Source: Mesobacillus sp. S13 (GTDB taxonomy: Bacteria > Bacillota > Bacilli > Bacillales > Cytobacillaceae). Taken from it: a stretch of DNA of 64,000 bases. This document shows, piece after piece, positions 25,918 to 56,815 of this stretch. Location of the stretch: the NCBI RefSeq assembly GCF_020422885.1, contig NZ_CP084622.1:606001-670000 (forward strand), written 5' to 3'. The notes under the pieces were generated by a model. It was not told the origin of the DNA and did no database searches. It saw only the letters and a list, made by a program, of their open reading frames with translations. Position 1 is the first letter of the stretch. Every line of letters begins with the position of its first letter. The translations under genes were made by a program, and so were the position numbers.

Positions 25918-26067
25918 ATGGGAATATTTATTATTGTTGTTGGCCTCGGCCTTGATAGATGGGATTTGGTTAGTTGCAAAGACAACTAGTAAACTTCTTA
26001 TTTCGCTGGAAAAAATCGGCTGTTTTTTCCAGTTCGCTATAAAACCGAAAAAGTCGCTATATAAATG
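25918..26067 (+). pseudogene. Possible small membrane protein, frameshifted
   Basis: GGAGG precedes the ATG at good distance and the first codons read MGIFIIVVGLGL. That frame stops at 25989, but one base shorter it would continue IDGIWLVAKTTSKLL, joining into a sensible membrane-peptide sequence. A one-base insertion near 25952 is suspected. The tail runs into the 20-bp tandem array, which may have replaced the original end. Confidence 0.3.
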
Positions 26068-26113
26068 AGAAACTCGCTATAAAAACAAAAAAGTCGCTAT
26101 ATAAACCAAATGG
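26034..26113. repeat. Tandem array F: four units of 20 bp
   Basis: TCGCTAT recurs at 26034, 26054, 26074 and 26094, each followed by an A-rich segment (for example TCGCTATAAAACCGAAAAAG). A perfect dyad CTGGAAAAAA/TTTTTTCCAG lies at 26006-26032, immediately before the first unit. Confidence 0.8.
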
Positions 26114-26222
26114 GGACAGACGGACGGGCTTCCATGCACGGAAACTTGAAATGGGTTGCCTGTTTACCGATAGAAATATAGGCACAAACGGTATTTATTA
26201 ATAGTAAAAGAGGGAGTAAACC

Positions 26223-26828
26223 ATGTTTTGGTTCTTTATTGTGATATTTTTTGCTGATTTGTTATTAGGCTTGATGCAAGCGTCACTATGGCTCATTATT
26301 TTGGTTAATCTTGTTATTATCTTAGTTTTTATGTACAAGAGCTTTTATCCGTTTCTTTTTGAGAAGGATCCGGATAAGATCATGGACTTTATGAAGAAAT
26401 CGAAGCATCCGCAATTTCAGTTTCATTATTATTTTTTCAATGATGAGTTGGAGGAAGCGGAGGACAGGATGTATAAAATTAAATCTCCTTTTTATCAAAA
26501 GCTGAGTCATGTAAACCTGCTTGTAAAAAGGAAGCAGTATGATGAAGCGGAAGAGATGGCGAGAGGATTAAAGGACAATATGTATAAATGGTATTCCCTT
26601 GCTGGGATTGCGATTGAGCAGGGGGATCGTGAATCATATAGGAAGTACAAAGATAAAGTGAAGAATCCTTTTTACCGCAGGTTATTGGAATTGGATGAGC
26701 TGGTCCATGTCGGGGAGAAGGAAAAGGTGCTCAGCGAATTGGAGACTATGATTCCGAGTTTGCGGGGAGCCAAGCTGCTTAGCGTGATTCAGTATAAGCA
26801 GGAACTCTTGAAGCAGAATGAGGATTAA
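26223..26828 (+). CDS. Membrane-anchored TPR-like protein, 201 aa
   Basis: Two N-terminal membrane helices (about residues 2-20 and 24-40) anchor a cytoplasmic domain of paired helices. The domain has repeats around the phrase SPFYQKL...NPFYRRLLEL and a TPR-like unit KRKQYDEAEEMARGLKD. GAGGGAG precedes the ATG. The protein probably mediates protein contacts at the membrane; partner and process are unknown. It is monocistronic, closed by two terminators in a row. Confidence 0.6.
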   Translation: MFWFFIVIFFADLLLGLMQASLWLIILVNLVIILVFMYKSFYPFLFEKDPDKIMDFMKKSKHPQFQFHYYFFNDELEEAEDRMYKIKSPFYQKLSHVNLLVKRKQYDEAEEMARGLKDNMYKWYSLAGIAIEQGDRESYRKYKDKVKNPFYRRLLELDELVHVGEKEKVLSELETMIPSLRGAKLLSVIQYKQELLKQNED

Positions 26829-26839
26829 GGCAAATACTT

Positions 26840-26868
26840 AGCACGGGGGCGTACCCTGTGCTTTTTAT
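26840..26868 (+). terminator. Terminator of the AGCAYRGGG family
   Basis: AGCACGGGGGCGTACCCTGT hairpin closing with GCT and TTTTATTT. Confidence 0.8.
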
Positions 26869-26870
26869 TT

Positions 26871-26903
26871 AGGAGACAGCAGAACCATCCGCTGTCTCTT
26901 TCA
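26871..26903. terminator. Hairpin of the GAGACAGC family
   Basis: GGAGACAGC...GCTGTCTCTTT lies between the convergent genes ending at 26828 and 26913 and can serve both strands. Confidence 0.7.
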
Positions 26904-26912
26904 CCCTCCTAG

Positions 26913-27071
26913 CTAACTTCTCTTTTCAGCAAATAACAAAAATAGTGTTGCTAAAGGACCTAATAAAAGAGAAAGCAAAAACCAATTCAATCCGGTCCTA
27001 TTCTTTCCTTGTGCAAGTCCAGCATTTATTAATGCTAAGGTTCCCCAACCAACAAAATATTGATTATCCAT
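26913..27071 (-). CDS. Small membrane protein, 52 aa
   Basis: The minus strand encodes MDNQYFVGWGTLALINAGLA followed by a polar turn (QGKNRTGLNW) and a second helix FLLSLLLGPLATLFLLF, ending EKRS. GGAGG lies nine bases before the ATG. The two-helix plan with a polar GKNRTGLNWF turn is seen in many short bacterial membrane proteins of unknown function. It is convergent with the 26223-26828 gene. Confidence 0.65.
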   Translation of the reverse strand: MDNQYFVGWGTLALINAGLAQGKNRTGLNWFLLSLLLGPLATLFLLFAEKRS

Positions 27072-27323
27072 TATCTTACGCCTCCGGTCCAATAAAAAGT
27101 GCAGCTAACGAATTAGCTATCTATATATAACAATTATACTACTAATTATTTGCAATTTGAGAAATGTTGGAAATAAATACACGAAAAACTGCTCCTTTCC
27201 ATTTTTTTAGAAGGCATAATCTTGAGACAGCAGAACCGTCCTCTGGGAACAAAATAACGTAAAGGAAATTTATGTTAAGATTTATATACAGGGTCCAAGC
27301 ATCAATTGACAAAGAGGTGCAAT

Positions 27324-27763
27324 ATGAAATTTCGTATAACCAATGAGATGAATGAGACAAATAAAAGCCATGTTAATCAAAAACTTTATGAATATAATTT
27401 AAAGCATTTTCCTGAAGATCTAAGAGGAAGATATCGAGAAGTGAATTTCTTTTTATTAGATGAGGATGGGAATGTTCGTGGGGGCATTTTGGGAGAGGTA
27501 TGTTGGAATTGGCTGGAAATACATATGTTATGGTCGATGAAGATCTCCGCGGCTCAGGATATGGAACTCAATTGTTAGGAGAAATGGAACAAATCGCCGT
27601 AGAGAGCAAGTGCGATTTTATAAAGGTGGATACTCTGAGCTTTCAGGCGCTGGATTTTTATCAAAAGAATGGTTATACCGTTTACGGCACACTGGATAAT
27701 GTGGGAAGAGAATTCAAGCATTTCTATTTAAAGAAGGATCTTTTAAGCGGGGAATCATTGTGA
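27324..27763 (+). pseudogene. GNAT acetyltransferase, frameshifted
   Basis: The first frame (from ATG 27324 after AGAGGTG) reads VNFFLLDEDGNVRGGILGEV and WNWLEIHMLW. The acetyl-CoA-binding half, VDEDLRGSGYGTQLLGEMEQ and AVESKCDFIKVDTLSFQALD, continues in another frame. Restoring one G after base 27533 joins WNWLEIHMLW to VDEDLRGSGYG, exactly the order of intact GNAT proteins. The damage is thus a single-base deletion in a GG run, either a recent mutation or a sequencing error. It overlaps the next GNAT gene by four bases (GTGA). Confidence 0.8.
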
Positions 27764-28185
27764 AAGTAGTCACGGCACAGTTAAGAGATCTAAACACGAT
27801 TGTTCAAGTAGACCGTCAAGTGATAGGAAATACAAGCAGAAAAGATTTTATTGAGCAAGCGATTAAACAAGGGCGTTGTATTCTAGTGAATGAAAATGAG
27901 GATGTTGCTGGATTTTTGATATATGATACTCATTTTTTTGAATGTACGTTTATATCCCTGGTTATTGTATCTCCCGCAAAGAGACGAAAGGGTATTGCGA
28001 GTCAATTGATGAATGATCTGGTTCGCACTGCTCCTACTGACAAAATTTTCTCTTCTGCCAATCGTTCTAACAAAAGCATGCAGAAGGTCTTTGAAGCAAA
28101 TGGATTTGTCGAGAGTGGTATTGTCAAAAACTTGGATGAAGGCGACCCTGAAATCATTTACTTTAAATCTAAGATTCTATCATAA
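27760..28185 (+). CDS. GNAT family N-acetyltransferase
   Basis: A 141-residue single-domain acetyltransferase. The acetyl-CoA pyrophosphate-binding motif A is ISLVIVSPAKRRKGIASQLM (RxxGxA), followed by motif B SSANRSNKSMQKVFEANGFV. The GTG start overlaps the stop of the upstream GNAT frame, with AGCGGGGAA as ribosome site, so the two were a tandem operon. Acceptor substrate unknown. Confidence 0.85.
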   Translation: MKVVTAQLRDLNTIVQVDRQVIGNTSRKDFIEQAIKQGRCILVNENEDVAGFLIYDTHFFECTFISLVIVSPAKRRKGIASQLMNDLVRTAPTDKIFSSANRSNKSMQKVFEANGFVESGIVKNLDEGDPEIIYFKSKILS

Positions 28186-28302
28186 GGTTTCGGAGGCTAG
28201 GGTTCTGTGTTGATCAGAGATGGGGAAGGCAGCAGGATGCCTAGGATACTGTGTTTGACTTCTAGGGTTTGGTACAAAGATTCCAATGCTTAATAAAAGG
28301 AA

Positions 28303-28332
28303 AAAGCAAAGGTTGATTCCTTTGCTTTTACT
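28303..28332. terminator. Bidirectional terminator
   Basis: AAAAGCAAAGG-TTGATT-CCTTTGCTTTTA between convergent genes, overlapping the end of the rsbR-type gene. Confidence 0.8.
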
Positions 28333-29197
28333 TTTGATCGTCAATAGTATTCGATAGGACAATCTTATTCGCCTTCAATGCTTGCTTTAAGGTTGCCTGT
28401 GTTGGTACTTTATGAAAGTTGATGCCTAGTTGGACTGCTGTCTGGGCGATTTCTGGGCGGATCCCGCTAATATGTACTTTTACTCCGATTAACTTCAAGA
28501 TGTCGATAATTTGGAATAACTGATTTGCTACCATTGTATCAATAATGGAGACGCCTGATAAATCGATAAACAGGTGTGTTAGATGGTAATCTTTGCTTTG
28601 CATCAGGACGGATTCTGTAATGTGCTTTGCACGCTGGGTATCGATATCTCCCACAAGCGGCAATACTCCGATAGAATCTGAGAGTGGTATGATCGGGGCG
28701 CTCAATTCATTGATCAATTCACTTTGGACAGAAATTCGATCATTGTAATAGTTATAATATTCTTCAGCAAAGGTTTCGATGATGGTATCAAATGTGGAGT
28801 GGATCAATGTGCTCCAATGCAGGATTTCTGTATCGGAAATTTCCCCTTTATTCTCCATGACGAACAGGTGAACATGCTCCCAGAAAATACCTCTGAATAC
28901 CTTGAATTGATGAATGACCTCGTGGAGAGGAGTTCTTGTCTCGACACGATCCATCGCAACGGCTTGAGCCCAAGTTTTAATCTCTTGATTCACTTCGTTT
29001 TCGCTGGTAACCAGTACACTGGCTACCGTTCTAATAAAAAGTCCATTTTGCTCCCTTAATCGGTCCTCAGCTCGATGGTTGTCACAAGAGGAGTATACGC
29101 TTGTAGGATCGTTGGCTCTCTTGCTTAACCATTTATTGGTGAGAATGGAAGGGTCTTCAGTGATGAAATCATAGAGTTTCTGATTATTAGGATTCAT
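28328..29197 (-). CDS. RsbR-type stressosome protein with STAS domain
   Basis: The 289-residue protein has an N-terminal RsbRD-like helical sensor domain (SILTNKWLSKRANDPTSVYS, HEVIHQFKVFRGIFWEHVH) and a C-terminal STAS domain with the conserved phospho-acceptor loop LFIDLSGVSIIDTMVANQLF. RsbR paralogues form the stressosome with RsbS, sequester the RsbT kinase and release it on stress, which activates sigma-B. No rsbS, rsbT or sigma-B genes are nearby, so it is an orphan paralogue. AAGGAG places the start at the ATG of 29197 rather than the ORF opening at 29233. Confidence 0.85.
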   Translation of the reverse strand: MNPNNQKLYDFITEDPSILTNKWLSKRANDPTSVYSSCDNHRAEDRLREQNGLFIRTVASVLVTSENEVNQEIKTWAQAVAMDRVETRTPLHEVIHQFKVFRGIFWEHVHLFVMENKGEISDTEILHWSTLIHSTFDTIIETFAEEYYNYYNDRISVQSELINELSAPIIPLSDSIGVLPLVGDIDTQRAKHITESVLMQSKDYHLTHLFIDLSGVSIIDTMVANQLFQIIDILKLIGVKVHISGIRPEIAQTAVQLGINFHKVPTQATLKQALKANKIVLSNTIDDQK

Positions 29198-29500
29198 GAT
29201 TTTCTCCTTAATTTCTGATATCAAAATGGTCATTTCTAGTTAAATATAAAGAATATATTAGATAAAATCAATTTTTTGTATGCTAAGGATTGGGCTTGCA
29301 TTTATTGGCTGCTATTAGTTTAAAGAAAGAGATTTACCCATCTTCAGAGTGACTGTGATGGAGAAAAAGACGGCTGCCCATTCGGCTAAGTTCTAGACCT
29401 TGAAAGCAGGATATATTCTGTGGAAAAAAGAATTGTTATTGAAGTATGGCCAGAGAGAAATGTCTTTTTATTAAATGACTAATTTGAGAGGATGGGCATC

Positions 29501-30397
29501 ATGAAGGTCGAAGCACTAAAAATGGAGCGACAGGGAGATTTTTTTGAATACTGTAAAAAACATCGAAAGGAACTGGATGATTCCTTTTTGTATGATGAAG
29601 ATCTGGAGAACTTCAAGGCGGATGCCGAAAACCCTACTTATATAATGACTGACTCAAATGGGCAAATAAAGGGTGCTGCCTCTCTTATTCTGGATGACTA
29701 CCATCGAAGGGGCAATAGGGCAAGATTCCGGATTTTTCATTGTGAATCACATGATGACCAGGACTATAAAAGACTGTTTGAGGCATTTTTAAAACATACA
29801 ATGTCATTGGATCATGTTTTTCTATTTGTTCCTTTGCTCAACGAGAAATTGAAGGTCGTCATGGAAAAGCTTAATTTTGACGTGGAAAGATATACTTTTC
29901 TGCTGGTCAGGGAGGACTTGGAGGTTCGGGAACCGGCTATTCCAAAAGGTTATCAGATTAAGAGTTTCCGGCCTGGCAAGGATGAGGATGCTTGGTGCCT
30001 GGTAAGGAATGCGGCGTTCTCGACGCTGAAGGGAAGTGAAACGGCGATTACACCCGAGATGGTCGCAAAAATGCCGGCAGAGTCTGATTACCTGGATGGC
30101 GGTATGATGATTCTCTATGAGAACGACGAGCCAGTTGGAGTGGTGAGAGGGTCGGACGATGAATATGAAGATTCACCAATCATGAACATCGGACCAGTCG
30201 CTGTTTTGCCGGAATACCAGGGGAGAGGATTAGGCAGGGTCCTGTTAAGAGCCGCAATCAAGTTTTCGAAGGAAAAAGGGTACAACAGATGTGTGCTTTG
30301 TGTGAATGGAGACAATGAACAAGCTAAAGCCCTCTACCTGCAGGAAGGGTTCGAACAGACAGAAGGAGTAGTCTGTTATCGATATGAACTTAAGTGA
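29501..30397 (+). CDS. GNAT acetyltransferase with two GNAT-like domains
   Basis: The N-terminal ~145 residues form a degenerate GNAT fold (ITYIMT-like start and HVFLFVPLLNEKLKVVMEKL). The C-terminal half is a full catalytic domain with MNIGPVAVLPEYQGRGLGRV (acetyl-CoA motif QxxGxG) and CVNGDNEQAKALYLQEGFEQ. An ATG at 29492 abuts the GAGAGG site; the ATG at 29501 has proper spacing and is chosen. Substrate is unknown. A terminator follows directly. Confidence 0.85.
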   Translation: MKVEALKMERQGDFFEYCKKHRKELDDSFLYDEDLENFKADAENPTYIMTDSNGQIKGAASLILDDYHRRGNRARFRIFHCESHDDQDYKRLFEAFLKHTMSLDHVFLFVPLLNEKLKVVMEKLNFDVERYTFLLVREDLEVREPAIPKGYQIKSFRPGKDEDAWCLVRNAAFSTLKGSETAITPEMVAKMPAESDYLDGGMMILYENDEPVGVVRGSDDEYEDSPIMNIGPVAVLPEYQGRGLGRVLLRAAIKFSKEKGYNRCVLCVNGDNEQAKALYLQEGFEQTEGVVCYRYELK

Positions 30398-30433
30398 AGC
30401 ATCGGGATCGCCCCCGGTGTTTCTCTTTTTTTA
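30396..30433 (+). terminator. Rho-independent terminator
   Basis: GAAGCATCGGG...CCCGGTGTTTC and a long T-rich tail, starting inside the stop codon region of the GNAT gene. Confidence 0.8.
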
Positions 30434-30513
30434 GCGTATGGGTAAAAGGGGGGAGAGTCACCGGTTGAATGTCTAAAAGTATGAGGGGGGAGAACAGAAA
30501 CAGGGTCTCCTTC

Positions 30514-30609
30514 TTACTTTCTTCTCCTCAGTTTTTCTAAATACAGTGCCATCCCTATGTAGATGCTGAAGAGAAGAACTATGAATAAGGGAGTGGATAG
30601 AGAATCCAT
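30514..30609 (-). CDS. 31-residue single-helix membrane peptide
   Basis: Directly downstream (11 bp) of the CBO0543-type gene on the minus strand, AAGGTGAT precedes an ATG. The product is MDSLSTPLFIVLLFSIYIGM, then ALYLEKLRRRK: one membrane helix with a strongly basic end (positive-inside). Its operon position suggests a small partner subunit of the CBO0543-type membrane protein. Confidence 0.5.
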   Translation of the reverse strand: MDSLSTPLFIVLLFSIYIGMALYLEKLRRRK

Positions 30610-30620
30610 CGGATCACCTT

Positions 30621-31136
30621 CTATTTTAAATCGTGTAATGCTGGATGAAAAAATAATAGGAGAACCGCAATAATAGGTGCCGATATAAGGAATGCGGCCA
30701 GCGCGTTTTTATAGTGGATCCTAACTACAGTAAAAGTAATGATGTTGAACAATACAGACCACCAAGCATTCCAGCCATTTTCATAGACAAACAAACCTTT
30801 AGCCTCGAATAGATATTCAATCCCGGAGAAATAGGCCACCCAGATCAGCACATACAAAAGTCCTCTTAACCTTTCTTTTGGAAAATACTCCAGGTAAATC
30901 ATCAAGACGACAGGGACAATGAAAAATGTGAAGGCAATCTCGATCAGCGTGTGATTTAACCAATCAACTGTAACAGCTTTATACTTCCATAGAGTATGTT
31001 GATAGAAGAGGAAATTATACAATAAATTACAGATAATATAGAACTGGACCGTAGGGTAGTATTCTTTCCACTTATGCCACTTAACGAACTTTTTTGCAAA
31101 AATAATATATACCACAATGACTAATAACAAATACAT
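30621..31136 (-). CDS. CBO0543-family membrane protein
   Basis: The 171-residue protein has five predicted membrane helices and the features of the CBO0543 family of Firmicutes: NLLYNFLFYQHTLWKYK, then a central LEYFPKERLRGLLYVLIWVA and WWSVLFNIITF. Function of the family is unknown. It leads a two-gene minus-strand unit with a 31-residue membrane peptide. Confidence 0.75.
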   Translation of the reverse strand: MYLLLVIVVYIIFAKKFVKWHKWKEYYPTVQFYIICNLLYNFLFYQHTLWKYKAVTVDWLNHTLIEIAFTFFIVPVVLMIYLEYFPKERLRGLLYVLIWVAYFSGIEYLFEAKGLFVYENGWNAWWSVLFNIITFTVVRIHYKNALAAFLISAPIIAVLLLFFHPALHDLK

Positions 31137-31345
31137 ATCTATAACCTCTTATAACTTTTAGTAGAATTCTCTCCAAAAAGAATCTTTCTTAGACACGATG
31201 GAGACACAGGCGGTTCAAGCGCCAAAAAAAGTGCGAATGGCTTTTTAACGATCTTCCATGTGTGCTTGAAAAATATCGTAGTATAATGGACAAACAAGGT
31301 CTGTTTTCTATTGGGCTACTCGTTACTTAAGGAGTTGAATGAACG

Positions 31346-32332
31346 ATGGACGAAAAAGTGATCAAGTGGGGAATATTAGGGACTGGCGGAATTGCCAGTG
31401 CTTTTGCAAGGGATTTAAACTTTGCTGAGAATACGGAAAAGTGTGCTGTTGGTTCACGTACGAAAGAGAGCGCGGAGAAGTTTGCGGAGGAGCATGGTGT
31501 GGCCCGTGCCTATGGGAGCTATGAAGAACTTGTGACAGATCCGGATGTAAATGCGATTTATATTGCGACGCCACACCCGTTTCATAAAGAAAATGTATTG
31601 GCCTGTCTTCGTGCTGGCAAGGCCGTGCTCTGCGAGAAGCCTTTTACTATCAATAGCGGTGAGCTGGAAGAAGTCATTCAGTTTGCGAGAGAACAAAAGC
31701 TGTTCTTGATGGAGGCGATGTGGACACGTTTCCTGCCGCCGATTGTGAAAGTGAAAGAATGGATCGACAGCGGTGAAATCGGTGAAGTTCTGTTGGTGAA
31801 GGCCGACTTTGGCTTCCGTGCGCCATGGAATCCTGAGGGACGATTGCTCAATCCGGCCCTTGGAGGAGGAGCCTTGCTGGATGTGGGGATTTATCCTGTC
31901 ACCTTTGCATCCATGATTTTCGGAACAAAACCGGAAAAGATTTTGAGCACGGCTCATATTGGGGAAACGGGAGTGGATGAACAGTTTTCCATCCTGCTAT
32001 CCTATCCTGGTGGAAAGACGGCCACCCTTAATGGTGCTTTCCGCGTCGACTTAACGAATGAAGCCTATATCCTTGGGACAGAGGGTCATATTCGGATTCC
32101 GTCATTCCATAGTGCAAAATCTGCCTTCCTATATAAAAATGGTGAGGAAGCAGATTCATTCAACGATGACAGACAGTCGGCTGGATACGCATTTGAAATA
32201 GTAGAAGTAGGCAGATGCCTGAGGCAAGGCCTTCTTGAAAGCCCTGTCGTTCCCCTGGATGAATCCCTGGAAATCATGAAACTGATGGATGAAATCCGCG
32301 GACAGTGGGGACTGAAGTATCCGGGTGAGTAA
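31346..32332 (+). CDS. Gfo/Idh/MocA-family oxidoreductase
   Basis: An N-terminal Rossmann fold for NAD(P) (WGILGTGGIASAFARDLN), the family's catalytic CEKP motif (AVLCEKPFTINSGELEEV), and the C-terminal substrate domain with GGGALLDVGIYPVTFASMIF (conserved Asp-x-x-x-His-like position has Tyr-Pro here) identify a 328-residue sugar- or polyol-type dehydrogenase. The substrate is unknown; the closest familiar group is trans-dihydrodiol/glucose-fructose oxidoreductase-like. It is monocistronic and closed by an AGCATGGGG terminator. Confidence 0.85.
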   Translation: MDEKVIKWGILGTGGIASAFARDLNFAENTEKCAVGSRTKESAEKFAEEHGVARAYGSYEELVTDPDVNAIYIATPHPFHKENVLACLRAGKAVLCEKPFTINSGELEEVIQFAREQKLFLMEAMWTRFLPPIVKVKEWIDSGEIGEVLLVKADFGFRAPWNPEGRLLNPALGGGALLDVGIYPVTFASMIFGTKPEKILSTAHIGETGVDEQFSILLSYPGGKTATLNGAFRVDLTNEAYILGTEGHIRIPSFHSAKSAFLYKNGEEADSFNDDRQSAGYAFEIVEVGRCLRQGLLESPVVPLDESLEIMKLMDEIRGQWGLKYPGE

Positions 32333-32376
32333 TGGATGTTTTAGATGAAAGCATGAGGAATAACGTCCTTTTTTCA

Positions 32377-32410
32377 GGAGCATGGGGACGTACCCTGTGC
32401 TTCTTTTTTC
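32377..32410 (+). terminator. Terminator of the AGCAYRGGG family
   Basis: GAGCATGGGGACGTACCCTG closing with TGCTTC and a T-run. Confidence 0.8.
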
Positions 32411-32449
32411 ATGGGCGCAGCTCTTTTTAAAAGTAGATCAAAGTAAGTT

Positions 32450-32955
32450 CAGACAGCTTTCACGAGGGCCCCGAAAAGCTGTCAAAAGAAAGCCCGACTT
32501 GCGACAGGTTTGGGGTTAAATGCAGAAAAGCTGTCAAAAGAAAGGGCAACTTAAGACAGGGTTGGGGCCAACAGCTTAAATCTGTCAAGAAACCGAAGAA
32601 ATTAAGACAAGTTTGGCACCAACAAGCAAAAAGCTGTCAAGAACCCGAAGGAATTAAGACAGGTTTGGGTTCAACAAGCAAAAAGCTGTCAAGAACCCGA
32701 AGGAATTAAGACAGGTTTGGGTTCAACAAGCAAAAAGCTGTCAAGAAAATGAAGGAATTAAGACAGGTTTGGGTTCAACAAGCAAAAAGCTGTCAAGAAA
32801 ATGAAGGAATTAAGACAGGTTTGGGTTCAACAAGCGAAAAGCTGTCAAGAAAATGAAGGAATTAAGACAGGTTTGGGTTCAACAAGCATAAAGCTGTCAA
32901 GAAATCGAAGGAATTAAGACAGGTTTGGTGCCAAATGAAGAAAAGCTGTCAAAAG
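32450..32955. repeat. Tandem array C: about 9.5 units of 52 bp with alternating half-sites
   Basis: AAGCTGTC recurs with its C residue at 32479, 32531, 32582, 32634, 32686, 32738, 32790, 32842, 32894 and 32946, a spacing of 52 bp (once 51). In each unit the near-inverse GACAGGTT lies 26 bp after AGCTGTC, so half-sites alternate in orientation every 26 bp. Outer units are more diverged than inner ones. No start codon or ribosome site accompanies any open frame across the array. Confidence 0.9.
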
Positions 32956-33088
32956 TAGTCCTGCTCACTACTTTTTCATCGGAAGGCGGTTACGCGCTAC
33001 AACCCACGGCCTTTCATTATTATCCATCATCGTAATATGGTAGAATGGCTTGCAAAGGATTTTACTTTTACATCAGGAGGAATCTAGA

Positions 33089-34066
33089 TTGAGAAAGCTG
33101 CCTATTAATGAAAATGGATTGAATGCTTCTGAGCTTGTTTTTGGCTGCATGGGGCTGGGAGGAAGCTGGGATTCTCAGCCGATTGAGCCGGAACATGTCA
33201 AGCAGGCGCATGAAGCGGTCGAAGCTGTACTGGCTTCGGGAATCAATATGTTTGATCATGCTGATATATATACATTGGGGAAAGCGGAGAAAGTTTTTGG
33301 TCAGGTTTTAAAAGAAAAGCCGGGACTTCGCGATGAAATCATCATCCAGTCGAAGTGCGGCATCCGTTTCGGTAATCAGGAAGCGGGACTGCCGACAAGG
33401 TACGATTTTTCAAAAGAGTATATTCTTGATAGTGTGGATGGCATTCTTTCAAGGCTTGGAATTGAGCACCTGGACATCCTGTTGCTGCACCGTCCTGATC
33501 CACTGATGGATCCAAACGAGGTAGGAGAGGCCTTCCATCAGCTCAAGGCTTCCGGCAAAGTGCGTTCATTCGGTGTTTCCAACATGAGTGCCGGGCAAAT
33601 GCGCTTACTGCAGAAGCATACGGATGAAAAAATCATCGTCAACCAGCTGGAAATGAGCTTACATAAAATTGGCTGGCTCGATACGGGTGTCCATGTCAAT
33701 CAGGAGGCGGCACGCCAGAATACCTTCCCGGAAGGAACGCTGGAGTATTGCCAGATGGAGAATATCCAGATTCAATCATGGGGTTCCCTTGCAAAAGGGC
33801 TCTATTCCGGGAAAAATATTGATAAGGAAAGCACAAGTGTCAAAAACACCGCAGCTCTGGTACAAAAGCTGGCTGAAGAAAAGCAAACCACACCAGAAGC
33901 CATCGTTCTCGCCTGGCTGATGAGGCATCCAGCAGGAATTCAGCCTGTCATTGGCACGGCAAACCCTGAACGGATCAAGGCAAGTGCAGATGCAGTCAAT
34001 GTGACTCTGACTCGTGACGAATGGTATACATTGTACGTGAGCTCACGAGGCGTTAACCTGCCTTAA
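33089..34066 (+). CDS. Aldo/keto reductase
   Basis: The TIM-barrel reductase has the usual catalytic tetrad context: NMFDHADIYTLGKAE (Asp and Tyr), IIIQSKCGIRFG (Lys) and DILLLHRPDPLMD (His). The NADP-binding end is PVIGTANPERIKAS. Length (325) is typical of the YdhF/YghZ-like group. The frame opens further upstream at 33050, but AGGAGG is set for the TTG at 33089, which also matches family N-termini (MRKLPI). Substrate unknown. Confidence 0.88.
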   Translation: MRKLPINENGLNASELVFGCMGLGGSWDSQPIEPEHVKQAHEAVEAVLASGINMFDHADIYTLGKAEKVFGQVLKEKPGLRDEIIIQSKCGIRFGNQEAGLPTRYDFSKEYILDSVDGILSRLGIEHLDILLLHRPDPLMDPNEVGEAFHQLKASGKVRSFGVSNMSAGQMRLLQKHTDEKIIVNQLEMSLHKIGWLDTGVHVNQEAARQNTFPEGTLEYCQMENIQIQSWGSLAKGLYSGKNIDKESTSVKNTAALVQKLAEEKQTTPEAIVLAWLMRHPAGIQPVIGTANPERIKASADAVNVTLTRDEWYTLYVSSRGVNLP

Positions 34067-34078
34067 TTTTTTGATGTA

Positions 34079-34117
34079 AAAAGAGGGACGGATTCTGTAG
34101 ATCCGTTCCTCTTTTAC
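34079..34117. terminator. Bidirectional terminator
   Basis: AAAAGAGGGACGGAT...ATCCGTTCCTCTTTT between the convergent reductase and VTT-protein genes. Confidence 0.85.
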
Positions 34118-35995: not shown

Positions 35996-36044
35996 ATTTT
36001 ATTTAATCGATAAACCTGAACGACTGTCTATTAGGGTAAATAGC

Positions 36045-36076: not shown

Positions 36077-36077
36077 C

Positions 36078-39246: not shown

Positions 39247-39252
39247 CGACTA

Positions 39253-43182: not shown

Positions 43183-43278
43183 AATCGCACCTCCTGATAC
43201 ATATTGATTCTATTATATGAAGTTTATATCCTTCTTTTGATAGCCTCTTAAGGAAGCTAATAAGATTAATGTCTAAAT

Positions 43279-43437
43279 GTGCCCTTATAGAAGCCAAACC
43301 GCCCTCATAAGGGTACGATTAAGCAGGAAATGTGCCCTTATAGAAGGCAAGCCGCCTGCATAAGGGTACGATAAAGCAGGAAATGTGCCCTTATAGGAGG
43401 TAAATCTCCCGCATAAGGGTACGGTTAGTCCTGAATA
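43279..43437. repeat. Tandem array B: three units of 53 bp, related to array A
   Basis: GTGCCCTTAT recurs at 43279, 43332 and 43385 (53-bp period). In each unit the near-inverse ATAAGGGTAC starts 28 bp later. The linker AAGCAGGAAAT matches the AAGCGGAATC linker of array A at 51972-52440. It lies between divergent genes (NTR-domain protein and bceR). Confidence 0.9.
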
Positions 43438-48165: not shown

Positions 48166-48202
48166 ATGCGGAGCCCAAGTGAATCCAAGTGAACCCAACT
48201 CC

Positions 48203-48283
48203 GAAGCAAGGGACATGTGTACCCTTGCTTTTTTGATGCTGGAAAAATGACCGAAGCACGGGACAAGTACCCTGTGCTTTATC
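48203..48283 (+). terminator. Two consecutive terminators of the AGCAYRGGG family
   Basis: GAAGCAAGGG...CCCTTGCTTTTTT (48203-48234) and GAAGCACGGG...CCCTGTGCTTTATCT (48253-48283) follow bceB. Confidence 0.8.
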
Positions 48284-48319
48284 TGTTACTGGAAAATTGA
48301 TTCTCTTAAGAAATTAGGC

Positions 48320-48424
48320 TAATTGCGCCGTAAATCATACTAATTGCACCAATCCCAGCATTAATTGCGTAAACACAGCCTAGAATTGCATGGAAAAAAG
48401 GTTTAATTGCACTTTTAAACAAAT
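48320..48424. repeat. Tandem array E: five units of 21 bp
   Basis: TAATTGC (once GAATTGC) recurs at 48320, 48341, 48362, 48383 and 48404, an exact 21-bp period. The bases between are A/C-rich and partly conserved. It lies between bceB and the next co-directional gene. Confidence 0.85.
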
Positions 48425-48505
48425 ATTTCCATGAAAACGTCTCTATGAAACTTTATATTGGTTGATTCGTATATAGAGAATACAAAAATAAAAGGGGATT
48501 TTTCT

Positions 48506-50176: not shown

Positions 50177-50180
50177 ACAG

Positions 50181-50232
50181 AAATCGCCTGCCCTCCGGTG
50201 TGAATGATGGACCGGAGGCAGGCGATTTTTTT
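50181..50232 (+). terminator. Strong Rho-independent terminator
   Basis: AAATCGCCTGCC and GGCAGGCGATTTTTTT pair, with inner CCGGT/ACCGG pairing. Confidence 0.9.
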
Positions 50233-50314
50233 GGTTATGGATAAATATAGGAAAGGTAAAGTGTCTTGAGGACATTTGGTGTAGGATATTTAGGAGATGG
50301 TATAGGTGAAAAAA

Positions 50315-50674
50315 TTACTGTTGTTTCTCATTCAGTATCTCCAAAACATCCTGATGCTGCTTCTGAATATTGGAAACATGCTTAATTTCACTGGATAGTT
50401 CTGATTTCGTTTCATCCAGCTTCTTCATCAGTGAGCCATAGTAAAATGCCACTTCCTTCCGCATCTCACTTTGTTCTAACTGCAAGGATTGTTGCCCATT
50501 CTCTAAGTTGGTTAAACGAGTCGCCATAGATTTAAACTGTTCATCAACAGCAACAAAGTTTTCATCGACAGCATCAAAGCGGGCATCAACAGAATCAAAA
50601 CGGGCATCAACAGAGTCAAACCGCTTGTCCATGGAATCAAGCCGATCTAAAATCTTATTCAATATTTCCGCCAT
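50315..50674 (-). CDS. Coiled-coil protein with pentapeptide-like heptads, 119 aa
   Basis: The N-terminal half repeats RFDSVDARFDSVDARFDAVD, a seven-residue period of a long coiled coil. The second half is also helical (TRLTNLENGQQSLQLEQSEM). GGAGGTG before the ATG at 50674 sets the start. Such small proteins are common in Bacilli beside phage or stress genes; function unknown. Probably an oligomeric cytoplasmic adaptor. Confidence 0.65.
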   Translation of the reverse strand: MAEILNKILDRLDSMDKRFDSVDARFDSVDARFDAVDENFVAVDEQFKSMATRLTNLENGQQSLQLEQSEMRKEVAFYYGSLMKKLDETKSELSSEIKHVSNIQKQHQDVLEILNEKQQ

Positions 50675-50869
50675 CTTATTCACCTCCTTCTTTATGAATT
50701 TATTATACCCAGCCTAGTAAAATAAGTCACCACAAAAGTATGTTTTAATCAGTCCTCCCGTCGCGCATTAGTTTCATAGGGAAACCGTATAGTTATCCTT
50801 CTGAAAAAGGTGTTTTTCCATATAATGTAGAAATTAATATGAATATAAAAATGGGAGGCACCAATACAT

Positions 50870-51874
50870 ATGTCCTTAAGTAAATCTAGTGAAATAAAAC
50901 TTCGAGATATGAAGGTTCCAGAGGATTATGAACAGCTCACAAGTCTTCTTAATATGATTGATCCGGGCTCCACTACTGCTCAATCTATTGAAGAGGAAGA
51001 TCGGCAAATTCCAACGGTATCTAATCTTAAAATGAACGAAGATGGTCTGTTGGCTGGTTTTGGCAGGACACGGGTAGTTGCTGAGGATGACAAGGGGCAG
51101 ATTATTGGTTATGGCGCTTCGTTTCGTGCTCCCTGGGTTGAACCTGGAAATCTAGGAAGCGTCTTCTGTGTTCACCCTGACTTTCGAAGGAAGGGGATAG
51201 GCGGAAAGATCCTTGCCCATCTTGAAAATTGGGCGAATGAGCATCATGCTTCTGTATTGTCCTCTATCGTAATGGATTGGATTGATGATTCGCTTCCATT
51301 CGTTCAAAACCGCGGCTTTGTAGTGGACGCACATATTTTTGATTTGGAATTGGACCTCAATCAATTTAACAATGCTAAATACGGCGATACCGTTGAACAA
51401 GTTATCCAGTCAGGCATTCAGTTGACGACATTAGCAGACTTAACGCGAGTGGAAACAGAAACCGAATTATATGAATTATGCGTGGAAACTGCCAAAGATA
51501 ATCCTGGCCAATACTCGAGCCTTCCTCCTTTTGAGCAATGGAGAAAAGAATTCCTTCCAGAAGCCAATTCGCGAAAGGAATGGGTTTTCCTTGCCATTGA
51601 TGGAGATCGTCTTATTGGTGTATCTCAACTATTCAGTACGGAAGATGAAGGGGTGCTGTATACAAACTATACAGGTATCTTAAAAGAGTATCGTGGTCGG
51701 GGAATCGCAAAGGCATTGAAATTGCGATCCATAGAGGCAGCCATGAAAGCAGGGGCCCATACGCTGACAACCGATTCGGAGGAAAAGAACGCACCAATGC
51801 AGCTTATTAATAGAAGCCTCGGATATATCCCTGGAAAAGGGCATTATCGGATTTTGAAAAAATTACGGAAGTGA
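50870..51874 (+). CDS. Two-domain GNAT acetyltransferase
   Basis: Both halves have the acetyl-CoA motif: GSVFCVHPDFRRKGIGGKIL in the first and NYTGILKEYRGRGIAKALKL in the second, separated by a linker near residue 165. The tandem plan resembles mycothiol synthase-type proteins, but Bacilli lack mycothiol, so another substrate is expected. GGGAGG sets the ATG at 50870. Closed by a terminator. Confidence 0.85.
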   Translation: MSLSKSSEIKLRDMKVPEDYEQLTSLLNMIDPGSTTAQSIEEEDRQIPTVSNLKMNEDGLLAGFGRTRVVAEDDKGQIIGYGASFRAPWVEPGNLGSVFCVHPDFRRKGIGGKILAHLENWANEHHASVLSSIVMDWIDDSLPFVQNRGFVVDAHIFDLELDLNQFNNAKYGDTVEQVIQSGIQLTTLADLTRVETETELYELCVETAKDNPGQYSSLPPFEQWRKEFLPEANSRKEWVFLAIDGDRLIGVSQLFSTEDEGVLYTNYTGILKEYRGRGIAKALKLRSIEAAMKAGAHTLTTDSEEKNAPMQLINRSLGYIPGKGHYRILKKLRK

Positions 51875-51900
51875 ACAATGGAAGGGAAGAGAACATCGTA

Positions 51901-51932
51901 AAAAGCACAGGGAGAGCCTGTGCTTTTTTTGA
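51901..51932 (+). terminator. Terminator of the AGCAYRGGG family
   Basis: AAAAGCACAGGG-AGA-GCCTGTGCTTTTTTT. Confidence 0.85.
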
Positions 51933-51971
51933 TTAAATTTAGTAGCGGAGGGTGTGTCCGTATGCCAGTTT

Positions 51972-52440
51972 AAGCGAAAGATCCCTTATGAAGGGAATTC
52001 TACCACATAAGGGTACAATGCAAGCGGAATCGTATCCTTATGAAGTCCAATCCAGCCACATAAGGATACGGTACAAGCGGAATCGTATCCTTATGAAGTC
52101 CAATCCAGCCACATAAGGATACAGTACAAGCAGAATCGTATCCTTATGAAGTCCAAGTCAGCCACATAAGGATACGGTACAAGCGGAATCGTATCCTTAT
52201 GAAGTCCAAGTCAGCCACATAAGGATACGGTACAAGCGGAATCGTATCCTTATGAAGTCCAAGTCAGCCACATAAGGGTACAATACAAGCGGAATCGTAT
52301 CCTTATGAAGTCCAATCCAGCCACATAAGGATACGGTACAAGCGGAATCGTATCCTTATGAAGTCCAAATCAGCCACATAAGGATACGGTACAAGCGGAA
52401 TCGTATCCTTATGAAGTCTAATCCACTAACAAAAGGATAA
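51972..52440. repeat. Tandem array A: nine units of 53 bp with alternating half-sites
   Basis: AAGCGGAATC begins units at 52022, 52075, 52128, 52181, 52234, 52287, 52340 and 52393 (all 53 bp apart), with a diverged first unit at 51972. Each unit holds GTATCCTTATG and its exact inverse CATAAGGATAC, whose starts are 27 bp apart; the next unit's half-site comes 26 bp later. Changes inside arms are rare, while the 16-bp spacer varies between CCAATCC, CCAAGTC and CCAAATC. No start codon with ribosome site is present. Confidence 0.93.
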
Positions 52441-52565
52441 GATACCAGCCGTAAAGATCCCCAACTTAGGCAATATTCCCTTTTTTCAAAGATTGCTAGC
52501 ATAATAGGGAATTAAAGGTAAAATAGAGTTAAAGAGATAGAGCGTGTTAAAAGGGGGGAATGATT

Positions 52566-54626
52566 ATGGTCCCAGCGATGGAATCCATTACGATCGTAAC
52601 TTTACGGGAAAAAGGGATCGATTCTGTCGTGGATTGGTTCGAGCAGCGTCAGCAATCCTTTTATGCGTTAGGCTGGTTTTACCTTCGTAATCAACAGCAA
52701 ATGGAGGAGTTATTTTACCGGTCGATCGTTAAGGTGCATAAGGAATTGCCTCGATATAAACAGGATTCTTCTTTCGAATTATGGGTTGCTTCGATTTTCA
52801 TTGATATTTGCCAGGAGCTTTCGGCTGATGATGGCATGCTGGCATCATCAGCCGAAAGTCCATTACATCAGGATTTATTTCATGCACTTGATCCGCTTCC
52901 AAAAGAGGAAAAAGAAGCAATGATCCTGACGTATGGCACAGGGTATTCCCGGGCGGAAGCTGCGCATATTTTACGAGTTTCAGCGGATAAAATGAAAGAG
53001 CTGTTGTTCTCGGGAACTCAGTCGGTCAGAAGACAATTGTACGGAACCAATACCTTCAACGGATGTAAGGAATATCAGCAAAACTACATTGATTATCTTG
53101 AAAAAACGATGGAGCGACCGGAGAAGATAGAGTTTGAGATTCATCTTTACGAGTGCGCAGAATGCCAGGAGGATTTGGCTGCCTTTCAGGATGTTACCTT
53201 GATGTTGCATCATGCTGAGTGGATGAGTGACTTGCCTGTGCCGGACAATTTTATCGCTAAAGTCAAAGAGCGGCTGGCAGAAAAGGAGAAGCAAAAGAAG
53301 CTGAGGAGCAAGAAGCGTAAGAATGTTGCACTTGTTTTTGTAAGTATATTTGCATTCGTGCTCGGGATCGGTTTCTTTACTGGTGCTTTTGCTAACGTCT
53401 ATTATGCTTGGACCGAAGAAGATGAGCAATTGCGTACCTTCCTGCAGGAGGGCCTTGGCCAAAGTGTGAACCTGGAAGCGGAAAGCGATGGCGTGAAAAT
53501 CAGAATTAAAGGCGTCGTTGCTGATGATTATCAGACACTCGTTTTTTACGAAATTGAAGATACAAATGAGGATAAACAATATGTAATGAATTTCGAAGAT
53601 GGGCTTTCCATAGAAAATGAGAGGGAAATCATGAAGCAGGATACCTATCCGCGATATCAATTTCCAGATCTTAAAGCTGAGATGAATAAGAAGGAAAAGA
53701 ATGTTTATCACGGAAAGGTGGGACTGCGGCCTCTTGAGGAAGAAAGTGGCGTTATCAAAATGAATATTGAAAGAATTCAAGAGTTGGCTCTCGACGAACA
53801 AGAGGCAAGGATGGGCTTTGGTTATAGGAGCAATGGATTTAAGACAGGTGAGTGGGAATTCGAGGTCCCGGTTACTAAGCAGCCTTCTATTGAATATGAA
53901 CTGAATGAGCAAGCAGAAATCGAAGGAATCCCGATTCGCCTCGATAAATTGATCATGGCCCCGACAGCCACGCTTTTGGAATATGGTATTCCGATGGATG
54001 GACAAGAAAAAAGGATTGATAGGATTCAATTTGACGATTTAGAAGTGAACAATGTAAAAGTGAAAGCAGACCAGTTTGGCGGTGGGTATAACTATTTGCA
54101 GCCTGAACCAAATTGGCAGATCCTCCAGATGTATTATGACCCGTTTTATGGAGAAGAACCGGAAGACGTTACCGTTCAATTTCATTCTGCCTATTTTTCA
54201 TTCGAAGACCATAAAAGTATCGAATTGGATGTGAATCAGCCTTATCCTCAGACGTTTGAATATGCAGGAAGTACCATCAGCATCGATAAAGTTGAAGTTG
54301 GCCAACCCACCACCGTTGTCATCAGCAATCATGAAATTGAAAACAGGAAATTTGAAACACTTCACTTTAATGTTGTAGGTGAAGATGAAAATGAATCGAT
54401 TTCAATCGGGATGGAAACGGAGGGAGTGATCGTGGATAAGAATGGTGTTCAATACGATATGAATTCACCGACACTCGATTATGAAAAAATTGAACAGCCC
54501 CGCCATTTCGTTACCGACCACATCTTAATGTTAGATGGGAACAAAGTCATCCCTAAAAGGCTCAATCTTTACGGGTATAGCTCGATGAAATATTTGGATG
54601 ATCAGGTGAAGATTTCGCTGGATTGA
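52566..54626 (+). CDS. Sigma-70-family/anti-sigma fusion with extracellular DUF4179-like domain
   Basis: Residues about 20-90 match sigma region 2 (FYALGWFYLRNQQQMEELFY, SFELWVASIFIDICQEL) and about 105-160 region 4 (LDPLPKEEKEAMILTYGTGY, SRAEAAHILRVSADKMKELL). A zinc-binding anti-sigma motif follows: Cys166 with HLYECAEC (HxxxCxxC) near 193-200. A membrane helix (VALVFVSIFAFVLGIGFFTG, about 252-272) leads to a ~410-residue extracellular beta-rich domain. An ECF sigma and its anti-sigma are thus one polypeptide. The ATG at 52566 is better spaced from the GGGGGGA site than the ATG at 52560. Confidence 0.8.
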   Translation: MVPAMESITIVTLREKGIDSVVDWFEQRQQSFYALGWFYLRNQQQMEELFYRSIVKVHKELPRYKQDSSFELWVASIFIDICQELSADDGMLASSAESPLHQDLFHALDPLPKEEKEAMILTYGTGYSRAEAAHILRVSADKMKELLFSGTQSVRRQLYGTNTFNGCKEYQQNYIDYLEKTMERPEKIEFEIHLYECAECQEDLAAFQDVTLMLHHAEWMSDLPVPDNFIAKVKERLAEKEKQKKLRSKKRKNVALVFVSIFAFVLGIGFFTGAFANVYYAWTEEDEQLRTFLQEGLGQSVNLEAESDGVKIRIKGVVADDYQTLVFYEIEDTNEDKQYVMNFEDGLSIENEREIMKQDTYPRYQFPDLKAEMNKKEKNVYHGKVGLRPLEEESGVIKMNIERIQELALDEQEARMGFGYRSNGFKTGEWEFEVPVTKQPSIEYELNEQAEIEGIPIRLDKLIMAPTATLLEYGIPMDGQEKRIDRIQFDDLEVNNVKVKADQFGGGYNYLQPEPNWQILQMYYDPFYGEEPEDVTVQFHSAYFSFEDHKSIELDVNQPYPQTFEYAGSTISIDKVEVGQPTTVVISNHEIENRKFETLHFNVVGEDENESISIGMETEGVIVDKNGVQYDMNSPTLDYEKIEQPRHFVTDHILMLDGNKVIPKRLNLYGYSSMKYLDDQVKISLD

Positions 54627-54682
54627 TACAAAAAAAGGAACGGAGATCTTTTATCATCCTTTTCTTACAAGGAGGCTAAAAT

Positions 54683-54949
54683 ATGAAGCTGTTTTTCCAA
54701 GCCGCCATTGGCTCGATTGCCATTCATGTAATCTATTTTGTCAGCATATTGGTCATTGGTTACATCAAAACGGTTAATTTCACACCGGATATAGAGGAAT
54801 CGTGGAATCGTGTTGATTCGCTACAGAACGAAGTAGCTTTCGGCATGACGAGTTCTCCGTTTTTCTTCCTCTTTACTTTTATCGGAATGACGTTTTTCTG
54901 TGTAATGATCATCGTTTTATTTAGGAAAGTTAAAGGAGCACAAGGGTAA
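54683..54949 (+). CDS. Two-helix membrane protein, 88 aa
   Basis: Membrane helices lie at about residues 5-27 and 58-80 (FFFLFTFIGMTFFCVMIIVL), with a charged loop between (DIEESWNRVDSLQNEV). AAGGAGG precedes the ATG. It follows the sigma/anti-sigma gene by 56 bp and is probably co-transcribed, so it may take part in the same signalling unit. No family recognised. Confidence 0.6.
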   Translation: MKLFFQAAIGSIAIHVIYFVSILVIGYIKTVNFTPDIEESWNRVDSLQNEVAFGMTSSPFFFLFTFIGMTFFCVMIIVLFRKVKGAQG

Positions 54950-54967
54950 AATCCCTGTGCTCCTTTC
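54935..54967. terminator. Terminator overlapping the stop codon
   Basis: GGAGCACAAGGG-TAAAAT-CCCTGTGCTCC contains the stop codon of the 54683-54949 gene in its loop. Convergent genes flank it. Confidence 0.8.
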
Positions 54968-54984
54968 CATAAGGCGCCGTCACT

Positions 54985-55659
54985 TCACTTCTTGCCGATA
55001 TGCTTCAAGGCTTCCCTTTTGCTTAAGTTCGAAAGAGGAAGCCTGTTCGTCATTTCGATGACTTTCTCAGGGTCTTGCTTTGCGTATTCTCTCAGTGCCC
55101 AGCCAATGGCCTTATTGATGAAAAATTCCTTCGTATGGCAGGTTCTTGAGATAATATCCTCGAGCATGGCCACGTCGGTTCTTTCTTTGTAGCCTAATTG
55201 GAATAAGATGCAGGAACGGATCAGCCAGATGTTATCCGAGGCGATCCATCTGTCGATAATAGGCTGCCGTTGCTGCGGGAATTTTTCAAGATAATAACCG
55301 AAATGCTTTTTCGCGATATGGTCGACCGTGTCCCACCACGGCTTGGTCGTGATGATGTATTCAAGAAGCCGGAGATTCTCTTCGGTGAACTGCTTTTTCA
55401 TTAAATCTAACAGGTACGCCCCGCTTATCTGCATTTCGCGTTCGTCCAGCTCCCAGAGGGAAGTAATGACCTCATGCAAGTCTTCCTTTGCAGGCAGGCC
55501 ATAAGTCTTCACATGCTGTTTGAAAACTTCCTGCATCTGCGGAGCTCTCAAACCAATATAGTCAAATTGATTCCTCATGTATTTGGAAAGCCTGACTGCT
55601 TCCGCGCTATTCCGGTGTTTTAATGCTTCCTCATATAGTGCTTCAACGTACTTATTCAT
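54985..55659 (-). CDS. alkD: DNA alkylation repair glycosylase (AlkD-type)
   Basis: The 224-residue all-helical protein is the HEAT-repeat glycosylase AlkD, which removes 3-methyladenine and 7-methylguanine without base flipping. The key residues are in place: Trp and Asp in KPWWDTVDHIAKKHFGYYL, Arg in NIWLIRSCILFQLGYKERTD and Trp in FINKAIGWALREYAKQDPE. Length agrees with the B. cereus enzyme (237). No methyltransferase-type repair gene is adjacent. Confidence 0.9.
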   Translation of the reverse strand: MNKYVEALYEEALKHRNSAEAVRLSKYMRNQFDYIGLRAPQMQEVFKQHVKTYGLPAKEDLHEVITSLWELDEREMQISGAYLLDLMKKQFTEENLRLLEYIITTKPWWDTVDHIAKKHFGYYLEKFPQQRQPIIDRWIASDNIWLIRSCILFQLGYKERTDVAMLEDIISRTCHTKEFFINKAIGWALREYAKQDPEKVIEMTNRLPLSNLSKREALKHIGKK

Positions 55660-55836
55660 CGTTACCTCACCATTAATATTGAATTTTGTATCTTGCCTCT
55701 ATTGTATAGTAATTGGGGAAACCGGGATATGTACGAAAAAAATGTCTTGGAACCGCAACAGCTCATAAGAAGGAATTGGATGATGAAAGTCGAACTTAAT
55801 CTATAAAAATTGGAGTGCGGATTGAGAGGAAGAATC

Positions 55837-56271
55837 ATGAAGGCGATGAATAAATCATATTTGGGCTGGGGCATTTCTTTGGTCACTTTTCTCATCATCA
55901 TGTTTGTTGATCAAACTTTCTATCTTGGCGTCTGGCCATCAACTCTGCCAGTTATACTCCTCGTTACACATGCTCTATATTTTCGGACGGATATAAAGGG
56001 AAAAAGGAGAATGCCGTATTCGATCTTTGTATTGCTTTATTTAAGCATTCTATATGTCTCTCTCCCTGACTACACCTATAATCAGGCGAAGGAAATCGTC
56101 CAGGAGAAATATGAGATCATAAACGAAAAAGAGCAGACCATACCTGTGATGGATCCTGGATTTCATCCTTTCTCCCTCACAAGCTTTTATTCCTTTAAGG
56201 TGAAATCAATGGATGCAGAACAGCGGGTGATGGTCAATCCGGATTCAGGAGAAATCATCGTCCCGCGTTAA
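55837..56271 (+). CDS. Membrane protein with extracellular C-terminal domain, 144 aa
   Basis: Three membrane helices (about residues 8-28, 32-48 and 58-76) are followed by a soluble domain of ~65 residues (NQAKEIVQEKYEIINEKEQT...VMVNPDSGEIIVPR). The end resembles PepSY-like or YpeB-like propeptide folds, which is uncertain. The ORF opens at 55810 with TTG, but AGAGGAAGA suits the ATG at 55837. Confidence 0.6.
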   Translation: MKAMNKSYLGWGISLVTFLIIMFVDQTFYLGVWPSTLPVILLVTHALYFRTDIKGKRRMPYSIFVLLYLSILYVSLPDYTYNQAKEIVQEKYEIINEKEQTIPVMDPGFHPFSLTSFYSFKVKSMDAEQRVMVNPDSGEIIVPR

Positions 56272-56276
56272 TCAAG

Positions 56277-56303
56277 AAAAAAACCACTTAAAGTGGTTTT
56301 TTA
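56277..56303. terminator. Bidirectional terminator
   Basis: AAAAACCACTTAAAGTGGTTTTTT between convergent genes; the minus-strand stop codon lies at its edge. Confidence 0.85.
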
Positions 56304-56459
56304 ATCGCGCATGGCTCCTGCCTCTCGGGAAGTCATGGCCCCCTGGCCTGCAGCTATATCTTTCTGAATCTGCTGTTTAACTTGTTCTGCATCTGTTCCT
56401 GAGTATCCAGGTTGCATAGCAGATCTGGAATTGCCTTTAGCTTGTTGATTTTTCTCCAT
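56301..56459 (-). CDS. Small Gln/Ala-rich hydrophilic protein, gamma-SASP-like, 52 aa
   Basis: AAGGAGGA precedes an ATG opening MEKNQQAKGNSRSAMQPGYS, followed by GTDAEQVKQQIQKDIAAGQG and ending AGAMRD. It has no hydrophobic segment or cysteine. Composition (Gln, Ala, Gly, Ser) and length recall gamma-type small acid-soluble spore proteins, but the match is by composition rather than a clear signature. Confidence 0.6.
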   Translation of the reverse strand: MEKNQQAKGNSRSAMQPGYSGTDAEQVKQQIQKDIAAGQGAMTSREAGAMRD

Positions 56460-56524
56460 AAAAATCCTCCTTCGTTTCCGGTTTTATTATTTACAAAGCT
56501 CTGTTTATCATTCATGCATATATC

Positions 56525-56815
56525 ATAAGCGGAGAATCTCCGTCTATTGTCTATAGAGGGCGCTTTTGAAGCCGGAATAAGCGGAGAGATTCCGGTTAAT
56601 GTATAAAAAGGTCACTTAGTAAGCTGGAATAAGCGGAGAGATTCCGGTTAATGTTTAAAAAGGCCACTCAGGAAGCCGAAATAAGCGGAGTTTTTCCGAT
56701 TAACTACCAAAAATTGATCAAAATTCGACGATTTTGATGAAATAAGCGGAAATATGACCCTTATTTTTAAAGAAATTAGGGAGGTTTTCAATTTAAGCGG
56801 AATTTCTCCGTTTAT
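56525..56815. repeat. Tandem array D: six units, mostly 52 bp
   Basis: ATAAGCGGA recurs at 56525, 56577, 56629 and 56681 (52 bp apart), then at 56742 and 56793. In the inner units ATAAGCGGAGAGATTCCGGT followed by TAAT forms an adjacent imperfect dyad (AATAAGCGGA/TCCGGTTAAT), so the half-sites are close rather than 26 bp apart. It lies between divergent genes. Confidence 0.85.

Follow-up and report, generated by a model that had tools for sequence, protein, structure and literature searches.

Bacillus genomes carry many tandem repeats that are constant in size and variable in sequence: a survey of 176 genomes found 4029 tandem repeats, of which 1886 were of 51–53 nt and 781 of 20–21 nt, with B. 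selenatarsenatis, B. boroniphilus and B. subterraneus among the species included (Subirana & Messeguer 2021, PMC8161180). Short signals and their reverse often occurred within one repeat, the repeats turned over between strains and, according to the authors, the 52-nt repeats showed no sequence conservation across species; a polymerising protein or a small RNA was proposed and the function left open (PMC8161180). The tandem arrays analysed here lie in a 64,000-nucleotide stretch of Mesobacillus sp. S13 (contig NZ_CP084622.1, positions 606,001 to 670,000, hereafter the window) and are members of this class, with the same size classes, a non-coding location and many families per genome. Four of their properties are not described in the earlier survey: a dyad register shared by most families, a pitch specific to each family, an absence of covariation between array arms, and conservation of site cores over spacers in orthologous arrays.

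Palindromic repeats outside genes are also found in the repetitive extragenic palindromic (REP) sequences and bacterial interspersed mosaic elements (BIMEs) that occur with REP-associated tyrosine transposases (RAYTs), which resemble our arrays in this respect and differ in having cognate transposases. Arrays of clustered regularly interspaced short palindromic repeats (CRISPR) combine constant words, variable spacers and a fixed pitch, whereas the words here are about 8–14 bp long, belong to many families and alternate in orientation in the long class, and each of two short families occupies 14–23 loci.

Two size classes of unit length

Six arrays (A to F) had been named in an original prediction made from the letters of the window, and all were recovered by Tandem Repeats Finder at the same places and with the same periods. 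The prediction held that none of the six was coding, which stands for A, B, C, D and F, array E lying inside a conserved gene, and that unit length is constrained despite differing sequences, which the genome bore out. Our survey sample comprised the window and 60 evenly spaced tiles, 1.264 Mb or 26% of the 4.806-Mb genome, and contained 65 intergenic arrays scoring at least 80. Periods of 51–53 bp were found in 33 of these, multiples thereof (103–208 bp) in eight and periods of 20–21, 40–42 or 60–61 bp in 16, placing 57/65 in the two classes or their multiples when arrays are pooled by period alone; eight more 52-bp arrays were scored as coding by a crude open-reading-frame (ORF) call. Exact 8-mer pairs in the 247.7 kb of sampled intergenic DNA gave the same picture, with 3825 pairs at 52 bp, 1002 at 53 bp and 3077 at 104 bp, and 123 and 165 at 20 and 21 bp, other distances mostly holding fewer than 60 save for multiples and for peaks at 51, 20–21 and 40–42 bp. 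In sampled coding DNA the pairs fell on multiples of three, with 344 at 52 bp. Intergenic unit lengths therefore cluster far above chance rather than being evenly spread, in a genome where at least eight long and seven short words were distinguished by eye.

Inverted sites of the long class in a shared register

The long class is represented in the window by array A (43275..43427, 53-bp units × 2.9, inverted TGCCCTTAT / ATAAGGGTAC sites), array B (52003..52439, 53 bp × 8.2, about eight units, inverted CATAAGGATACG / CGTATCCTTATG sites), array C (32503..32928, 52 bp × 8.2, inverted GACAG / CTGTC sites, with one older unit upstream from 32451) and array D (56568..56690, 52 bp × 2.4, AATAAGCGGA / TCCGGTTAA sites, flanked by more diverged sites at about 56525–56825). 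Most of the long-class units printed contain a short site twice, once in each orientation, at spacings that hardly vary. With the spacing left free, TTTGTCYGAA sites faced each other at 21 bp in 49/49 cases and stood back to back at 31 bp in 49/51, and each of the other long families counted kept its own inverted spacings, one or two exceptions aside. A search for CGGACA pairs 40–70 bp apart found 430, compared with 27 for the reversed control, and among the 100 listed of these 430 (plus strand, below 2.09 Mb) 95 were at 52 bp and five at 53 bp. The pitch depends on the family, being 53 bp for CATAAGGGTAC, 52 bp for the GGACA families and 51 bp for some others, and it was unchanged between same-family arrays at different loci (families F1–F4) whose spacers were 33–47% identical, about 27% being assumed for random sequence.

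The long families can be superimposed on one another. Measured from a common point, (G/T/R)(A/C)C, which was aligned by hand first and then tested, their cores lie 25 bp and 26–28 bp apart. For the dyad test we took 82 long arrays from Mesobacillus and other genera, 79 of them with at least two units, and obtained a local dyad score of at least 0.9 in 28/79, compared with 4/79 when columns were shuffled. The 55 long arrays with a dyad score of at least 0.80 stand in register, with a constant distance between core and dyad: C occupies about position +12 in 84%, the top column reaches 1.30 bits and the alignment totals 6.96 bits, whilst 40 random-axis runs reached at most 0.23 bits in a column and 1.57 bits in total, each run being the best of 5 starts and the observed alignment the best of 20. 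Most long families thus share one register around the dyad, into which array D does not fit.

Direct sites of the short class, at exact pitch in two families

Arrays of the short class are built of direct sites with variable spacers. Array F (26034..26110, plus strand, 20 bp × 3.8) holds four direct TCGCTATA sites at a 20-bp pitch, and a degenerate short array overlooked by the original prediction (48320..48412, minus strand, the 48320 array below) holds five GTGCAATTA-type sites at a 21-bp pitch. Over the whole genome, TCGCTATA pairs sought at 19–22 bp stood 20 bp apart in 87/88 cases and 21 bp apart in one, GTGCAATTA pairs sought at 19–23 bp stood 21 bp apart in 34/34, and the reversed control patterns of both words gave zero matches. 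The GTGCAATTA spacers were 34% identical (tiles, n=9) against 26% expected from composition.

A palindromic cap, CTGGAAAA...TTTTCCAG (26006..26032, plus strand, letters checked), lies immediately next to the first of the array F sites. Similar palindromes, judged by eye, stand next to the beginning of other TCGC-type short arrays (loci L012, L013, L015, L026, L027 and L061), and GTGCAATTA arrays seem by eye to start beside TCC-N7-GGATGA (L015, L018, L024).

Protein-binding lattices as the favoured explanation

The prediction had read the periods as whole helical turns. This holds approximately only, and in its literal form we reject it, the pitch being 20, 21, 51, 52 or 53 bp according to family; this dependence on family suggests a geometry imposed by protein and not by the helix repeat alone. 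In our judgement side-aligned protein binding in fixed phase, also raised in the prediction, is the best reading of the geometry, and we consider with modest confidence that the arrays are protein-binding lattices. They would be lattices of short sites for sequence-specific DNA-binding proteins, in which the long class would alternate the orientation of one site of about 10–14 bp, with 25 and about 27 bp between cores, so that equal sites would return every 51–53 bp (about five turns), and the short class would present direct sites at intervals of 20 or 21 bp (about two turns). The spacers would be filler, and the pitch of each family would be set by contacts between neighbouring molecules of a polymerising protein. 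For the short class the type of mechanism proposed may resemble that of BldC of Streptomyces, which PMC5859096 presents as a small MerR-like protein and developmental regulator that multimerises cooperatively, head to tail, on direct repeats of varying number. A general role, for example in packing the nucleoid locally or in setting a boundary between neighbouring genes, seems to us to fit better than control of one gene, because arrays lengthen or shorten, disappear and give way to other families.

Several observations weigh against protein-binding lattices. A given array is missing at its place in most relatives. The shared register is a poor match for array D and some others, 24/79 arrays were excluded from it for weak dyads, the 55 retained are not independent, several of the register families share GGACA, and 6/55 register arrays come from loci retrieved by the CGGACA pattern. 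Spacers within one array are alike (0.77–0.89), as expected from recent duplication, and in the spacer comparison between loci site identity is high by construction and the fifth-family pattern matched nothing. The ATTGGTGCCC family has a spacer common to species and loci, so whole ATTGGTGCCC units are copied. In the short class the pitch is not exact in every family, since TCGCCAATA pairs (tiles, n=12) mix six at 20 bp, five at 21 bp and one at 41 bp, and the TCGCTATA spacers are not random, being 63% identical (tiles, n=16) against 47% by composition, with a common A-rich pattern. Finally, no binding protein was found, and the 1427 sampled ORFs include no gene family concentrated at the arrays. 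Two array-adjacent families were discarded: one of seven consisted of spurious ORFs made of the arrays themselves, and one of five carries its own 60-bp coding repeats.

Array arms vary independently

The arrays might instead act as RNA, their transcribed hairpins serving as small RNAs or sponges as proposed in PMC8161180, and two results are consistent with this: arrays B and C, taken as two-unit stretches, give better folds than shuffled sequences (z −7.8 and −3.8), and 52-nt satellites of B. coagulans appear in RNA-seq (PMC8625621). The arms, however, show no covariation. In the TTCRGACA family the variable bases of close pairs were 20 C-G, 10 C-A, 16 T-G and 3 T-A (Fisher p 0.21), far pairs likewise showed no dependence (p 0.49), and facing sites in 41 arrays had undergone 85 one-sided changes, three compensatory and two other double changes, with 3.5 doubles expected under independence. 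Folding was weak for array D (z −1.7), array F did not fold at all (z +1.8 against shuffles), and Rfam models gave no match in the window at gathering scores. The array arms look like independent DNA sites rather than RNA stems, and we regard an RNA function as improbable.

Arrays are gained, lost and replaced between species

The 48320 array is kept in four relatives (L313, L315, L320, L325), partly in another (L316) and as one site in L317. Its five complete orthologues, the window included, are all 93 bp long without length change, and over their ten pairwise comparisons the cores are identical at 410/450 positions (91%) and the spacers at 254/480 (53%). In ISL-41 (L101) and G017 (L314) the same gap holds a 52-bp array instead, of 12 units in ISL-41, and in G312 (L312) a single half-site stands between similar flanks.

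Among the 12 relatives printed for the place of array B, about nine units with different spacers are present in L078, about three in L070 (identical in sequence to ISL-55, L099), two in L079 (the same as M. boroniphilus, L102), one in L073 (the same as ISL-37, L100) and one diverged unit in L072, with none or remnants in the remaining 7/12; L081 may be a paralogue. At the place of array C, of 14 relatives one has three units with different spacers (L329), two have one unit of another word (L335 and L341), and no array was seen in the rest. At the place of array A, M. boroniphilus has TACCCTTAT-type and ATTGGCGCCC units adjacent to each other and ISL-41 has one ATTGGTGC unit; array D has one unit fewer in ISL-41, and neither ISL-55 nor ISL-37 has it; and the TCGC site of array F is absent within 700 bp of its place in 10 relatives (one of them, L362, distant). 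From one species to the next an array may be shorter, longer, missing or exchanged for another, and since most relatives lack an array at a given place, no array is essential; for the same reason we reject the idea that an array is tied to one gene. In G311 (L336, about 1091–1450), seven 53-bp CCCTTAT/ATAAGGG units stand 3′ of an aldo/keto reductase orthologue.

Such turnover would also be expected of neutral or selfish satellites that spread and change copy number by slippage and recombination, their fixed size reflecting the way in which an array is born and no function for the host. In favour of this, arrays at the same places are gained, lost, shortened or exchanged for another family, the gap of the 48320 array holds a 52-bp array in ISL-41 and G017 and one half-site in G312, and ATTGGTGCCC units are copied together with their spacer. 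Duplication alone, however, leaves the same pitch and register with unrelated spacers unexplained, and in the orthologous 48320 array the cores change more slowly than the spacers. We rank neutral satellites second to protein-binding lattices and think them rather unlikely.

Over the order, the families are largely species- or group-specific, as the restriction of TCGCTATA illustrates, its triplets (17–20 bp allowed) being present in 7/7 same-genus genomes drawn and in 0/292 others. The CGGACA word is wider: its triplets (gaps of 38–58 bp) occur in 65/299 genomes and 40/117 genera, often at 52 or 51 bp among the matches listed, some of which are chance or coding, the reversed control also matching scattered genomes, mostly few times and at most 29 times on a single strand. 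A further genus (G028, G302, G237) has, by eye, direct recurrences of TTCGGACA at about 21, 31, 42 and 63 bp; in unbiased G302 tiles TTCGGACA is the commonest word at lag 21 (seven pairs, with two each at 31 and 63, all small numbers), and in G028 tiles it is hardly visible. The 52-bp class is strong in G302 and G028 (403 and 233 pairs) with a different word, whereas small samples of G024, G027, Psychrobacillus soli and Bacillus sp. FJAT-27251 showed no 52-bp array. Perspicuibacillus lycopersici carries a period-104 array (2 × 52; L105, 18611–19563) with a word outside the Mesobacillus set.

Gene context and chromosomal position

Only 3/47 placed long arrays lie in divergent gaps, which make up 21% of gap bases (p 0.011), and 12/47 lie in convergent gaps, an excess that is not significant (p 0.11). 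Avoidance of divergent gaps would suit elements that bound supercoiling or transcription outside promoters and need no dedicated lattice protein, comparable in role to the gyrase-binding BIMEs of E. coli. Promoter avoidance would, however, yield the same pattern, the convergent excess falls short of significance, and distances to 3′ and 5′ ends differ little (medians 99 bp, n 56, and 124 bp, n 38); of the explanations weighed, this one appears to us the least probable.

The TCGCTATA and GTGCAATTA loci cluster in the origin half of the chromosome, with 4/37 between 1.2 and 3.6 Mb (p about 1e-6), a figure to be read with one further locus lying 0.3 kb outside that interval and with halves chosen after the data were seen. 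Long arrays in tiles have a weaker origin bias (p 0.025) and the CGGACA loci among the matches listed have none (8 below and 10 above 1.2 Mb), so origin bias does not extend to all arrays. The preference of the TCGCTATA and GTGCAATTA loci for the leading strand is weak (26/37, p 0.02).

An origin from mobile elements was rejected. Plasmid and phage records gave no match to array B, and CGGACA pairs at 50–54 bp on viral contigs (80 of at least 120 loci) have periods that are mostly multiples of three, none of them 52. The genome has a single Y1_Tnp gene, and the repeats surrounding it differ by eye from the arrays, which led us to reject a RAYT/REP origin. These repeats, like CGACAAATTTCGGGTGGTGACAGGCACC, stand singly around that sole, RAYT-like gene (L127, 1260–2490) and form a separate REP-like element.

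Other repeats of the window

Array E (50542..50620, 21 bp × 3.8) lies within a minus-strand coding sequence (50315..50683) for a 122-aa coiled-coil protein. Its repeat encodes RFDSVDA, a coiled-coil heptad, and because it is coding, with 21 bp corresponding to seven amino acids, array E falls outside the phenomenon. The protein was found by tblastn at 69–76% identity in 5/6 relatives' loci tried (none in L101), heptads being gained or lost as whole units among relatives, and gave sub-threshold matches only against Pfam. Short repeats of 50 and 41 bp at 48201–48300 and 60812–60899 resemble doubled terminator hairpins, not phased arrays.

Possible implications for the Bacillales

Beyond the single genome, we raise the tentative possibility that satellites of the chromosome carry protein filaments, formed by one family of DNA-binding proteins that spans the Bacillales and has diversified in specificity. 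The words differ from one array family to another, but one lattice would be kept (inverted cores 25/27 bp apart or direct cores 20–21 bp apart). Depending on the genus, TTCGGACA occurs in the one lattice or the other, and if the possibility holds this would link the two size classes to a single type of protein. The common register and family-specific pitch lead to a concrete prediction, that a phased array should retain a protein which an array of shifted pitch does not. Were this correct, the arrays would represent a system for organising the chromosome in which the geometry is maintained even as the sequences are exchanged within a genus.

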